Part shown: positions 1-8,232 of the stretch, piece after piece | Numbering within the stretch: the stretch's first letter is position 1 | How the letters are laid out: each line of letters begins with the position of its first letter | Assembly: GCF_000165735.1 (NCBI RefSeq) | Contig: NZ_GL538208.1 | Coordinates: forward strand, 358,682-422,681 | DNA length: 64,000 nt | Direction: 5' to 3' | From: Megasphaera micronuciformis F0359 | GTDB lineage: Bacteria > Bacillota > Negativicutes > Veillonellales > Megasphaeraceae | Position numbers and translations under genes: made by a program | Notes under the pieces: generated by a model | What the model was told of the DNA's origin: nothing | Databases searched by the model: none | The model's input: the letters and a program-made list of their open reading frames with translations, nothing else

Positions 1-45
1 ACATTTTGTTTCGGCTTTTATTGTGTGAAGAATCACAAAATCGTA

Positions 46-116
46 ACGCTACGATTAAAAGCAATAACGCTCCGAAAATCGTTAAAATGCTCCGATATTA
101 TTGACAACGCTCCGAT
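46..116. repeat. Four phased 10-bp direct repeats upstream of the AAA/subtilase operon
   Basis: Copies start at 46, 67, 87 and 107 and read ACGCTACGAT, ACGCTCCGAA, ATGCTCCGAT and ACGCTCCGAT, each at most two bases from ACGCTCCGAT. The 20-21 bp period is close to two helical turns, so bound proteins would lie on one DNA face. The first copy sits inside a perfect inverted repeat (AATCGTA 39-45, TACGATT 50-56). The last copy is in the promoter spacer and the third just upstream of the -35 box. This suggests an operator for cooperative repression, perhaps by the HTH protein of the third gene (inference). Replication iterons are an alternative. Confidence 0.7.
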
Positions 117-129
117 ATTATGATATTAT
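101..129 (+). promoter_or_regulatory. Sigma-70 promoter of the AAA/subtilase operon
   Basis: A perfect -35 box TTGACA (101-106) is followed after 17 bp by TATTAT (124-129). The first ATG at 154 follows a strong AAAGGAGG site at 141-148. The spacer carries the fourth direct repeat, so a bound regulator would block RNA polymerase. The strength of the promoter suggests that the operon must be actively repressed. Confidence 0.75.
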
Positions 130-153
130 CACCTCAGCCGAAAGGAGGCCTCT

Positions 154-1251
154 ATGTACTATACTGAGATTACCAAAATCATAGAAGCCGGCTTGAGAAA
201 AGATCCAACGAAAGTGGCAAGCTATTCACGTCTTCTTGCAAAAAAGTTAAGCGGCGATGGAGAAGAGCGTGCGAGCAGCAGAATTTTATCCGTACTGGAA
301 AAGATGGGAAATGGCCATACTGCTATGGATGCATTGACAGCCATGCCGGTGGATCAGGAAAGCCGACTTGATATTGCAGATATTGATTACGCCCCCGGTG
401 TCGATAATCTAATTTTAAGTGACTCTGCACAGAACATGCTAAATGATTTCAGAGATACAATCCAAAATAAAAGCAAGATGATATCTCTTGGACTTGAGTT
501 TCGTAGCACTCTATTGCTATATGGTCCTCCGGGATGTGGAAAAACGAGTGCGGCAAAGTATCTTGCCGCGGAACTAAAATTGCCGCTCGTTACTGCGAGA
601 TTCGATACTCTAATATCTTCTCTTTTAGGAAATACTGCGAAGAACATACACCGTATTTTTGATTTTGCGAAAAAACAACCCTGCATTTTATTTCTTGATG
701 AATTTGATGCTATTGCAAAGGCAAGGGATGATGCTCATGAACTTGGTGAACTAAAGAGAGTTGTTAATAGCCTGCTTCAAAATATTGACGACTTTTCGCA
801 GGATAGTATTTTGATTGCTGCTACAAATCACGCTCAAATGTTAGATTCCGCTGTTTGGAGAAGATTTCAGGCTGTTATTGAACTTCCTAAACCTGGAAAT
901 GTAGAGATACGTAAATTTATAGATCAGTTCCCTAAGGTCGCCGATGAAAGTGGCATCAATGAACCACAATGGAGAACTATTACGGACTCCATGGAAAATC
1001 TGGCGTATTCAGATATAAAAGATATTGTTCAAAATGTATTAAAAAAAGCTGTTCTTAAAGATAAAACAGAGATTGAATGTGCTGATTATCTGGTTGAAGT
1101 TTTTCTTTTTAAGAGGCACGGGAATTATAATCAGGAGGAAGCGGTTAAGTTTTTATATGACAACGGTGTTGCACAAAAGCAGATCGCAAGATATTACTCC
1201 ATATCCGAAAGACAAGTTAGAAATTTTCTGGGGAAGGGAGTGAATAAATAA
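154..1251 (+). CDS. ietA: AAA+ ATPase, IetA-like component of an IetAS module
   Basis: A 365-residue AAA+ ATPase. Walker A GPPGCGKT lies at 124-131, Walker B ILFLDE at 178-183, sensor-1 Asn near 225 and paired arginine-finger residues at 236-237. The FtsH/spastin-like AAA domain follows a helical N-terminal region. The last 40 residues look like a helix-turn-helix (QKQIARYYSISERQV), an addition worth noting. The stop overlaps the ATG of the subtilase gene by one base. A standalone AAA ATPase coupled to a large S8 protease is the arrangement of IetA/IetS, described as a toxin-antitoxin module on an Agrobacterium Ti plasmid and later listed among anti-phage systems. The likely job is to control or activate the partner protease. 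The symbol is assigned from architecture only. Confidence 0.75.
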   Translation: MYYTEITKIIEAGLRKDPTKVASYSRLLAKKLSGDGEERASSRILSVLEKMGNGHTAMDALTAMPVDQESRLDIADIDYAPGVDNLILSDSAQNMLNDFRDTIQNKSKMISLGLEFRSTLLLYGPPGCGKTSAAKYLAAELKLPLVTARFDTLISSLLGNTAKNIHRIFDFAKKQPCILFLDEFDAIAKARDDAHELGELKRVVNSLLQNIDDFSQDSILIAATNHAQMLDSAVWRRFQAVIELPKPGNVEIRKFIDQFPKVADESGINEPQWRTITDSMENLAYSDIKDIVQNVLKKAVLKDKTEIECADYLVEVFLFKRHGNYNQEEAVKFLYDNGVAQKQIARYYSISERQVRNFLGKGVNK

Positions 1252-3692
1252 TGGATAAGCTATTGCCAATCAAATTTTTTGAGAAGAGAAAAATTGACGA
1301 GCAACTTACAGAAGCCGGTGGTAATAATAAGCCTCCCAAGTGGGTCTTGAAAGATGGGGAACTCGCTGCTCACTCTCAGCATCTTACAATCGGTCTATCA
1401 AAGGTTGCCGCCAATTTCGAGATACATAAAAATGAGGAACATGCACTTCCAATGGTTATGACCACAGCCGTAACCGAGGAAGCTCTCGCAAAGACTCATA
1501 GAAAAGCTATCGTTGATCTTCTCAATAGTGACAGCAACGCCAACGTTATAGGTATTGAGCCTGATAGAAAGCTGAAATCCGAAACCGCAGCTGTTGATTC
1601 ATCCCGTATGGAGCCCAAGAAGGAAGAACCAAAAGAAACAAGAAGGCTACTATCCATTGTAGCAACAGACGAACTGATTTCAAATATCAACAGGGCCTTG
1701 CAGGATACGAAAGGCTCTGCAAAGATCATTTCTTCGATTGCTGATATCGAGCCTTTTGAAGCGTGGAGTGGTGATTATAATCCGGAAAACAAAGCCTATC
1801 GTGTGGTACTGATTAATTATCAGGATGCTCACAGGAATCAGTTAGCCCAGACGTTGTTTAAGAATCAATGTGCTGCACATGGAATTACAATCGACAGAGA
1901 AACACGGTATTCATCTGACATGAGACTATATAGGGTTAGTCTTGATTGTCTGGAAGAAATGGAGACCGTTCGTAATTTTGAGGGTGTCCAATCTATTGAA
2001 GAGGCGATACCAATTCGTGCGGATCTGGATTCATTTGATGCTATGTCCGTTCCTGCGGTAAAACGTCCTGTTGAAGGGAAAAAATATCCTGTTGTTGGTG
2101 TCCTTGACAGCGGCATTCAGAAAAACGGATATCTTTCCCCCTGGCTTCTTAGTCAGTCTGAAGAATATTACGAAGCGAGTCTGCAGGACAAAAGCCACGG
2201 TTCAATAGTTGCTTCTATTCTGGAATATAGCGATGAGTTAAATAATACGGATTATTCTTCTACAGATGGGGTGATGATGCTTGAGGCTGTAATCGCTCCT
2301 AATCTAAAGAAAGAGAATGTGTATCCTGAAGATTTGATAGACAATGTCCGTGACGCAATCGAGCGTCACCCGGATATAAAGATTTGGACGATGTCTGCAG
2401 GAACGACCGAAGAATGCGATACCAATTCTTTCTCAGAATACGGTATGGCACTGGACAACATAGAAGATGAAAACCATGTGCTGATCATTAAATCGGTCGG
2501 AAACAGTACGGCTTTTATGAATGGAGGCACTGAGAGGGTTGCCAAAATGGCGGACTCAGTGCGGTCTATCATTGTTGGGTCTATTGCAAATGCGAAAGGT
2601 AAATACGATTTTGCAGAAATTGATATGCCTTCTCCGTTCAGCAGAAAAGGCCCTGGACCCTCATATATCATAAAGCCAGACCTTGTTGCTTATGGTGGTA
2701 ACGCAGGTAAGCTCCCTGATGGCAGAATGACAACAACTGGAGTTAAGGCATTCGATGCTTCCGGTATTCCAACAAATGCGCCAGGCACCAGTTTTTCCAC
2801 GCCTTGGGTAGCACGAATTGCTGCGGAATTAGATTTCCTTTTGGATGGCGATTTTGATCCACTGCTAATAAAAGCCCTTATGATCCATAATTCCGTATAT
2901 CCTGCCGGAGATAAGATGACAATGGACGATAAGAAGAAATACATGGGTTTCGGTATGCCCAAGGGGACGGGAGATATACTTTATAATTCGGAAAATGAGA
3001 TAACGCTTGTTCTGAGGGACACTCTACAAAAGGGAATGTTTATTGATGTTCTCGATTTTCCATTTGCTGATAGCCTGATTGGATCTGATGGCAGATATCA
3101 TGGACAGATAACCGTTACAATGGTAAGCGCACCAATTTTGAGATCATCTGAGGCTGCAGAATATTGCCAGTCGAATATCAACGTTGCCTTCGGAACAATG
3201 GAAGATATACAGGAGAGAGATACAACTAAGCGAACCGTTAGAAATCCTTATGGTGCTAAGGATGCAAAAAATATTATTCAAGACAGCCTTTACAGTAGCA
3301 AAGTTTTTGATGTGTTGGAAGGAGAGGTTTTCGGTAGAGAACGCACCCTTCTGAAACTTGGACAGAAGTACTATCCCGTAAAGAAATATGCAGTTAATCT
3401 GGATGAGATGACGGAAGCTAACCGCAGAAATTATCTGGATGGCAGCAGGAAATGGTACATGAAGGTTGAGGGCCTTTTCAGAGATGCGGTTGAGCGAGAG
3501 GCAAGAGATACCGGAGAAGTGCTTGAGCAGGAATTTTGTATCCTTCTGACTATCCGAGATCCAGAAGGAAAGGCTCCTGTTTATAATGAGGTTACACAGC
3601 AATTACAGCAGAGAGGTTTCGTTTATTCGAATGTACGTCTCAAGAATGAAGTCAGAGAACATGTTCACATTGAGGAGGACAGCATAGGGTGA
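1251..3692 (+). CDS. ietS: Large subtilisin-like serine protease, IetS-like
   Basis: An 813-residue S8 peptidase without a signal peptide, so probably cytoplasmic. The catalytic triad is visible as Asp286 (VGVLDSGI), His316 (KSHGS) and Ser514 (GTSFSTP). About 270 residues precede the protease domain and about 280 follow it, far more than in a secreted subtilisin. The start overlaps the ATPase stop, with a GGGAAGGGA ribosome site at 1231-1239. This pairing matches IetS of the IetA/IetS module. In such systems the protease is presumed to be the effector and the ATPase its controller; the target is not evident. The triad looks complete, so the enzyme should be active. Confidence 0.75.
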   Translation: MDKLLPIKFFEKRKIDEQLTEAGGNNKPPKWVLKDGELAAHSQHLTIGLSKVAANFEIHKNEEHALPMVMTTAVTEEALAKTHRKAIVDLLNSDSNANVIGIEPDRKLKSETAAVDSSRMEPKKEEPKETRRLLSIVATDELISNINRALQDTKGSAKIISSIADIEPFEAWSGDYNPENKAYRVVLINYQDAHRNQLAQTLFKNQCAAHGITIDRETRYSSDMRLYRVSLDCLEEMETVRNFEGVQSIEEAIPIRADLDSFDAMSVPAVKRPVEGKKYPVVGVLDSGIQKNGYLSPWLLSQSEEYYEASLQDKSHGSIVASILEYSDELNNTDYSSTDGVMMLEAVIAPNLKKENVYPEDLIDNVRDAIERHPDIKIWTMSAGTTEECDTNSFSEYGMALDNIEDENHVLIIKSVGNSTAFMNGGTERVAKMADSVRSIIVGSIANAKGKYDFAEIDMPSPFSRKGPGPSYIIKPDLVAYGGNAGKLPDGRMTTTGVKAFDASGIPTNAPGTSFSTPWVARIAAELDFLLDGDFDPLLIKALMIHNSVYPAGDKMTMDDKKKYMGFGMPKGTGDILYNSENEITLVLRDTLQKGMFIDVLDFPFADSLIGSDGRYHGQITVTMVSAPILRSSEAAEYCQSNINVAFGTMEDIQERDTTKRTVRNPYGAKDAKNIIQDSLYSSKVFDVLEGEVFGRERTLLKLGQKYYPVKKYAVNLDEMTEANRRNYLDGSRKWYMKVEGLFRDAVEREARDTGEVLEQEFCILLTIRDPEGKAPVYNEVTQQLQQRGFVYSNVRLKNEVREHVHIEEDSIG

Positions 3693-4489
3693 TATCCAAG
3701 CAGCGGGAAGTATATCGCGTAACAAACTCGGAATGTGATAAAGTCAATTACGAACTTACCGAGTCTGAGGTTCTGAATCTTTATTATTCAGAGCCTCGGC
3801 TTGCTGTGCTTATGGATCTTGATGTCATCCGTTTGATAGACCGCCATCTTGTAGTAAATCTGAAAGAGTTTATTACTCCCAAAACAAATCATCTGACGGC
3901 ACATGCAAGAAGACACATTTCTAATTGTTGCGTAGGGATTCATTATATAAATGAGTTTGAGAGCCAACCGCTTTCTGTAACTATAAGCAGCACGCTTGAC
4001 ATTCTAATTCAATCAGCAAGCTTTTTGGAAAAGGCTTTTCCAGTTGTTGGTGCACAAACCGAAGTAGAACAAAACAAGGAATCAACACTGATCAATAAAG
4101 AAATTGACAGGCTTAATAAAATCATTATGAATCTTCCAGGGAGTTTCTCGGGTTCACTAAAAAGCCATATGGAAAGAAAAGGTTATACGGAGGAATTGTT
4201 ATCACAGGAGTCGTGGGTAAGTCTTAGCACAATAAAGCAGTATCGTCAGAAAGAAGAAAAAGAAAAGACACTTAAAACGGTAACGGCTCTTTGCATTGGA
4301 CTACATCTTCACCCGTGGCTGACAGAAGACTTGTTAAGGAAAGCGGGTATAGTTCCAAAAGCTACAAGGCAGGATGGTGCGTACAGATATTTATACACGG
4401 TCTTATATAAAGGGACAATCGAAGAGTGCAATGTATATTTGCGTTCTCAGAAATTGCAGGAGTTTAAGTTGCGTGAAAAAATGGCTTAG
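3689..4489 (+). CDS. Unrecognised protein with XRE-like helix-turn-helix; third gene of the IetAS-like operon
   Basis: A 266-residue protein starting at a GTG that overlaps the protease stop (GTGA), with GAGGAGG at 3672-3678, so it is translationally coupled. Residues about 155-220 look like an XRE-type helix-turn-helix followed by a helical segment (LTEDLLRKAG). The first 120 residues match no family I recognise; they contain a basic stretch near 70-76. A small linker at 125-150 is probably coiled. It may repress the operon through the phased repeats, or act as a sensor for the ATPase-protease pair. Both are inference. A strong terminator follows. Confidence 0.6.
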   Translation: MISKQREVYRVTNSECDKVNYELTESEVLNLYYSEPRLAVLMDLDVIRLIDRHLVVNLKEFITPKTNHLTAHARRHISNCCVGIHYINEFESQPLSVTISSTLDILIQSASFLEKAFPVVGAQTEVEQNKESTLINKEIDRLNKIIMNLPGSFSGSLKSHMERKGYTEELLSQESWVSLSTIKQYRQKEEKEKTLKTVTALCIGLHLHPWLTEDLLRKAGIVPKATRQDGAYRYLYTVLYKGTIEECNVYLRSQKLQEFKLREKMA

Positions 4490-6551: not shown

Positions 6552-6935
6552 ATGGAAGGCAAGATAATTTTTAACAACACGGCAAGGGCGGGAGAAAAAC
6601 CCGCCTTCCGCCCATTGGTATATATTTGCGCGCCTTATTCCGGTGCTGTGGAAGAGAATACGAAAAGAGCGGCCGCTTTCGCGAAGTATGCCTATGACAA
6701 AGGGAATATTCCGCTGACGGCGCATCTGCTGTTTCCTTTTATGGATGACACTGACGAAGAGGACAGGAGAATCGCCATTTTCATGGACATTGTCCTGATG
6801 GGTAAATGCCAGGAGGTCTGGGTATTTGGAAACGAAATTACCCGGGGAATGAGAATTGAAATTGAGAAAGCGAAGAAACGCAGACAGAAGGTCAGGTATT
6901 TCAACAGTAAATTCCAGGAGGTGGAGGAAAAATGA
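6552..6935 (+). CDS. DUF4406 protein, nucleoside deoxyribosyltransferase-like
   Basis: A 127-residue protein with a Rossmann-like start (YICAPYSG), a helix with NTKRAAAFAKYA, a central LTAHLLFPFMDD stretch and VWVFGNEITRGMRIEIEKAK. These fit the DUF4406 family, related in fold to nucleoside 2-deoxyribosyltransferases and common in phage genomes. The true substrate is unknown. It lies between the antirepressor and primase genes, overlapping the latter by four bases, so the three are one transcription unit. Confidence 0.7.
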   Translation: MEGKIIFNNTARAGEKPAFRPLVYICAPYSGAVEENTKRAAAFAKYAYDKGNIPLTAHLLFPFMDDTDEEDRRIAIFMDIVLMGKCQEVWVFGNEITRGMRIEIEKAKKRRQKVRYFNSKFQEVEEK

Positions 6936-8001
6936 GGGATCTTGCCATCGCCTATGGGAATAACCGTCAGGCGAAAAAATGGGTGAACAAAACCATAAGC
7001 TATGATGACTTGAAAGCGCGGCTTAAGGTGACCATTCGCACAACGGAGTCGGCGGAGGAATACGCCAAGATGAGCAGGGCGCAGCGTGATATCGCAAAAG
7101 ACCACGGAGGCTTTGTGGGCGGCGTGCTGAGAGGCGGCCGCCGCAAGGTGGATACCGTGGAGCTTCGTTCCATGATTGCGCTTGACGGAGACCGGATCGA
7201 TAAAACGTTTCTTGCTGATTATGAAAAAAGCGCGCCCTATGCTTCCTGCCTGTATACGACACATTCCAGCACCCCGGAGAATCCGAGGGTGCGTCTTGTG
7301 TTTCCGCTGACAAGGGATGTGACAACGGAAGAGTTTGTCGCCGTATCAAGGTATCTTGCTGAGATGCTCGGTATCGATTTCTTCGATGAATGTTCCTATC
7401 AGCCTAATCAGCTGATGTACTGGCCGTCCTCTCCGCAAAACGGCGTATTCGTGTTTAAGGAAACGGAGAAGGACTGGCTGAATCCTGATGATATTTTATC
7501 CGCTCACCTGGAGTGGACGGATCCCACAAGGCTTCCGACATCGTCTCGTGAGAGCAAGGCAAATCAGGTGACAAAGGAAAAGGTGAAGGAGCCACTCGCA
7601 AAAGATGGAACGGTCGGCCTATTCAATAGAGTCTATTTTCCAATCTCCCGAGCGCTGGAGGATTTCCTTTCCGATGTCTATGAACCGACGGATAATGAGA
7701 ACCGCTGGCATCTTATAACGTCATCCAGTATGGCGGGGGTGGAAATCATCGAGGATAAATTTGTGTATTCCCACCACGCCAAGGATCCCGCCTATCTGAA
7801 GCTCTGTAACGCCTTTGATATCGTCCGCATCCATAAGTTCGGCGATTTTGATGATAAGGAATCTTTTAAGGAAATGTGCGAGTTTGCTATGCAGCAGGAC
7901 GAAGTAAAGGTGGCTGCCGCAAACGAGAAGTTGTCAGAGGCGGAAGAGGACTTTTCCGATGTTGACGACTGGAAGAAAAAGCTCCGCTGTACCTCGAAGG
8001 G
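6932..8001 (+). pseudogene. Truncated phage/plasmid primase (VirE/VapE-type replication protein)
   Basis: The first about 355 residues resemble the N-terminal half of mobile-element primase-helicase proteins annotated virulence-associated E: residues IALDGDRIDKTFLADYE and YTTHSSTPENPRVRLVFPLT match the archaeo-eukaryotic primase-like domain. Full-length relatives are roughly twice this size and carry a helicase domain with Walker motifs; none is present. At about 8000 the frame enters DNA that encodes the C-terminus of a permease in another frame, adding a short meaningless tail that stops at 8083. A deletion or illegitimate recombination therefore removed the helicase half. Confidence 0.75.
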
Positions 8002-8232
8002 GCGGTTTTTTTTGGAACAATACCAGTGGCCGAAGCCCTTTTGGCAAAAGGGGCATTGCTTGGTACGATTCTCAGCTTTATGATGGCAGTTACCACACTC
8101 AGCCTTCCTTCTCTCATAATGCTGAAAAAGGTGATTAAACCAAAGCTGCTTGGAACGTTTATAGTCATCTGTACAGTGGGTATCATCATTGTCGGATATG
8201 GCTTCAATGCCATTGCGTACTTACTGGTTTAA
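8002..8232 (+). pseudogene. 3' fragment of a permease (ArsP/YraQ, DUF318-like)
   Basis: Reading in the frame ending at 8232, the sequence encodes FFGTIPVAEALLAKGALLG, then hydrophobic segments SFMMAVTTLSLPSLIMLKK and TFIVICTVGIIIVGYGF. This matches the C-terminal end of predicted permeases of the DUF318 group that often accompany arsenic-resistance genes. The 5' three quarters of the gene are missing, replaced by the truncated primase. It is followed after 13 bp by arsC, so the ars cluster was cut from the left. Confidence 0.65.

Follow-up and report, generated by a model that had tools for sequence, protein, structure and literature searches.

The operon at the start of the window (the whole 64,000-nucleotide stretch of Megasphaera micronuciformis F0359 DNA analysed here) is best read as an autoregulated toxin-antitoxin operon that combines an AAA+ antitoxin with a helically phased direct-repeat operator. 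Phased arrays with different letters stand before many IetAS relatives, suggesting that the antitoxin ATPase IetA reads DNA and switches off its own operon. We consider it likely, with a probability of about 0.72, that the repeats form an operator array for autoregulation, to which IetA binds via its C-terminal helix-turn-helix (HTH) domain, thereby repressing its own operon.

Repeat array and operon

The features concerned, in window coordinates, are as follows.

1-24, + strand: 3' half of a terminator-like hairpin (AAAAGCTGA...TCGGCTTTTATT) of the upstream operon, assigned by eye; the hairpin starts, also by eye, about 10-15 bases 5' of the window
40-55, no strand: palindrome ATCGTA-ACGC-TACGAT, enclosing repeat copy 1
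45-54, + strand: repeat copy 1, AACGCTACGA
66-75, + strand: repeat copy 2, AACGCTCCGA
86-95, + strand: repeat copy 3, AATGCTCCGA
101-106, + strand: -35 element TTGACA
106-115, + strand: repeat copy 4, AACGCTCCGA, in the promoter spacer
124-129, + strand: -10 element TATTAT, with a 17-bp spacer at 107-123
154-1251, + strand: IetA, AAA+ ATPase (antitoxin), with a predicted C-terminal HTH at residues about 327-360 (PADLOC, AlphaFold)
1251-3692, + strand: IetS, S8 subtilase (toxin), its start overlapping the IetA stop (PADLOC, Pfam Peptidase_S8)
3689-4489, + strand: accessory protein of 266 aa, akin to the C-terminal portion of ImmA/IrrE-like HTH proteins

The start-to-start distances of the four AACGCTCCGA-like 10-mers are 21, 20 and 20 bp, and these are the same repeats that an earlier note on this DNA had placed at 46, 67, 87 and 107, in a register one base off. 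Its description of a palindrome around the first copy was accurate, as was its placement of the last copy inside the spacer of TTGACA/TATTAT, where ACGCTCCGAT at 107-116 lies entirely between the two elements. Two copies of GATATTAT also stand in tandem across the -10 region (113-128). When window positions 1-150 were shuffled with dinucleotide composition preserved, chains of at least three phased copies (at most one mismatch, spacing 19-22) appeared in 0 of 3000 shuffles and two copies in 48, and a pattern search of the 1.76-Mb genome returned no second adjacent phased pair of the window repeat elsewhere. The repeated sites overlap the operon promoter, as is expected of an autoregulated toxin-antitoxin operon.

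Profile matches of the predicted proteins identify the operon as an IetAS toxin-antitoxin/anti-phage pair with a third gene behind it. IetA matches the PADLOC IetA profile over residues 2-361 (6.1e-129), and the adjacent subtilase matches the IetS profile (7.7e-271) and carries the catalytic motifs DSG, HG and GTSFSTP in its translation. With an AAA+ IetA followed by an overlapping S8 subtilase and strong PADLOC matches, the pair resembles IetAS/IteAS (Gao_Iet), from which it differs in having a third gene and in that both proteins fall below the NCBIfam equivalog cut-offs (366 bits against 510 for IteA, 346 bits against 900 for IteS). Among the best matches to solved structures, IetA was near only p97/Cdc48-type AAA domains, and none near IetS was found. 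Relatives of IetAS on SGI1 (PMC5006074) and in mycoplasmas (PMC8562856) are functional toxin-antitoxin pairs.

Directly upstream of the window (L003 7146-9975), the translations read as a C5 DNA methyltransferase, a protein that is possibly a restriction enzyme, and a Vsr-like endonuclease, so that the surroundings resemble a defence island. Further into the window, a short permease-like fragment (ORF 8026-8232) overlaps the end of ORF 6932-8083, which suggests a deletion or insertion junction.

Two-turn phasing across the IetAS family

IetA loci were gathered from genomes, viral contigs, plasmids and phages and retained only where an IetS gene lay directly downstream, and the 150 bp upstream of each of 52 divergent operons with an HTH-bearing IetA were scanned for repeats at lags of 5-65. 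Lag 21 yielded 147 repeat matches where 12 were expected (z 19.8) and lag 20 yielded 87 against 12, with lags 41, 42 and 61-63 likewise raised. Three stretches of coding DNA within IetA gave no lag signal, and other promoters in the IetAS loci showed a weak one (73 vs 30 at lags 20 and 21 combined, nothing at 41/42). At the level of single operons, three copies at 20-22 bp reached p<=0.05 in 27 of the 52 and p<=0.01 in 19; the spacings of the clear arrays, for which the search admitted only 20-22 bp, were 21 (47 times), 20 (18) and 22 (3). The register of the arrays relative to the -35 element was non-random modulo 21 (Rayleigh p 0.004). Judged from these upstream regions, the IetAS family keeps its two-turn phasing while the letters change, in support of the earlier proposal that an operator-like array covers the promoter from one face of the helix. 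The same note had looked to homologous operons for the same repeats; the phased architecture recurs there, whereas the exact letters were seen again only in L038 (9521-9946), an almost identical island of a different assembly, its upstream context differing from that of the window.

Arrays before other IetAS operons are built from TAACGT, TTACGTT, ATAACAA, TTTGATTCG, CGTTC and GGTAAA, among others. The promoter of a 58%-identical IetA (L118, 5951-6000) reads TTGACA-TCGCTCCGATTTTATG-TTATTAT, near the window promoter and its spacer copy, and the repeats upstream of it are TTTTGATTCG; since the spacer resembles that of the window and the upstream repeats differ, the letters of an array may be replaced over time with the spacer site retained. 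The repeat sequences track IetA phylogeny, the motif correlating with the HTH at r 0.28 (Mantel). In partial Mantel tests the coefficient was 0.10 for the HTH and 0.20 for the AAA core, which explains the motif at least as well, and the test did not single out the HTH over the rest of IetA as the part that the repeats track. The genome contains another complete IetAS operon at a distance of 58 kb (G000:C33:300786; L004 2784-6217), next to an ORF resembling a transposase. Its IetA is 48% identical to that of the window and its own, different array consists of ATAACAA at 20/21 bp; different arrays at two loci in one genome are consistent with locus-specific readers.

The C-terminal domain of IetA as candidate reader

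The C-terminus of the ATPase, which had been noted as HTH-like, is confidently modelled by AlphaFold as a tri-helical HTH (pLDDT about 95), whether it is predicted by itself or within the whole protein. Among solved structures it comes nearest to resolvase, ParB, sigma region 4 and LuxR-type HTHs, matches that are weak as homology evidence, the best Foldseek E-value being 0.35 and not significant alone, and HTH_23 weakly matched 18 of 41 members at E<=0.1. The predicted fold would provide the DNA-binding domain that the antitoxin of an autoregulated operon carries.

Phased repeats go with this domain. Operons whose IetA lacks the HTH and ends after the AAA lid have far fewer of them (Mann-Whitney p 0.002; 0.027 with stricter clusters), and 4 of 14 reach p<=0.05 individually, HTH presence being assigned here from reading C-termini rather than from a curated model for each protein. 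A subclade with another HTH (L149, L145, L013, L205, L150 and L148) shows no significant 21-bp arrays; instead, TGTACGAA-like sites stand in pairs at 10-11 bp intervals before the -35 element and, in most members, recur after the -10 element. Significant pairs of this kind occur in 5 of these 6 operons vs 2 of 88 others (Fisher 2e-6).

Other explanations of the array

An unlikely alternative is that the array serves IetA as an activator or nucleation platform, either by raising expression, in the manner of a sensor or UP-like site, or as a centromere- or iteron-like site. The latter version would link the array to the plasmid incompatibility described for ietAS; however, no partition partner was seen adjoining the operon in the window. 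As for activation, several arrays in the family end just upstream of the -35 element, where activators bind, and SgiAT expressed from its own promoter gave no post-segregational killing, for which its authors suggested a need for positive activation (PMC5006074). In the window and in several relatives, however, the last copy lies within the -35/-10 spacer, which favours repression.

The 266-aa product of the third gene, with its XRE-like HTH, was named in the earlier note as a possible binder; it is an improbable repressor, although it is encoded in the same operon and matches HTH_3 weakly (E 0.041). No homologue was found at those other IetAS loci that had been gathered when it was sought, and phased arrays occur family-wide without it. 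In L038, moreover, an in-frame 387-bp deletion takes out its HTH region and all four repeats are kept. The lack of conservation and the natural copy that retains its repeats without the HTH both argue against this protein as the binder. It is akin to the C-terminal part of proteins of about 650 aa with an HExxH-type region, which we read as ImmA/IrrE-like, and a viral scan for it returned no match.

Intrinsic curvature from phased A-tracts, with no dedicated reader or with a general host nucleoid protein, would account for an interval of 21 bp, equal to two helical turns, and for the AT-richness of many arrays. It is nevertheless very unlikely to be the explanation. When only repeats matching at three or more G/C positions were counted, the signal persisted and lag 21 became sharper (55 vs 1.5), so that the arrays are not merely phased A-tracts; repeat sequences also vary between families, and HTH-less IetA genes show little signal. 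Coincidence, or common descent of a few sequences, is barely credible, for although related loci are not independent samples, the shuffles yielded no comparable chain, harmonics appear at 41/42 and 61-63, and divergent clusters with different letters keep the signal where coding DNA has none.

A proposed model of autoregulation

In the autoregulatory reading, several subunits of IetA, probably held together as a single AAA+ oligomer, would use their HTH domains to occupy cooperatively the sites that recur every two helical turns along one DNA face. RNA polymerase would be blocked by the copy that lies between -35 and -10, and in relatives also by one immediately 5' of the -35 element, and IetA and IetS would thereby be kept low and balanced. 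Repression would be relieved when IetA is depleted or occupied, and release might likewise occur upon infection or, as the earlier note also proposed, plasmid loss. A more speculative and rather unlikely extension makes IetA a self-reading AAA+ antitoxin in which promoter occupancy is governed directly by the ATPase or substrate state, according to whether IetA is engaged with IetS or with a phage signal; on this view the array would belong to an infection sensor instead of serving simple feedback, and quickly changing array/HTH pairs would keep co-resident IetAS systems apart.

The HTH-linked operator architecture offers a concrete hypothesis for how IetAS is restrained and triggered, one that would account for the DNA-binding domain predicted on an antitoxin ATPase. 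The phased array could also serve as a sequence signature for locating functional IetAS promoters. A literature search yielded no description of IetAS operator arrays or of DNA binding by IetA; as many subscription papers lay outside that search, the novelty of the arrays is provisional.

Comparison with known systems

ParR/parC and the omega regulators likewise use phased direct repeats on one helical face, bound cooperatively by a small DNA-binding fold. The present array, in contrast, adjoins genes for IetA, IetS and an HTH protein, with no ribbon-helix-helix adaptor and no ParM/actin-kind NTPase or motor; its spacing is 20-21 bp and its likely reader is an AAA+ protein. In type II toxin-antitoxin autoregulation, the antitoxin gene comes first, the sites lie over the promoter and the antitoxin bears the DNA-binding domain, an arrangement that the window operon shares insofar as its predicted domain is concerned. 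It departs from that scheme in that the antitoxin is an AAA+ ATPase, and in that a long array of direct repeats two turns apart takes the place of one or two palindromes.
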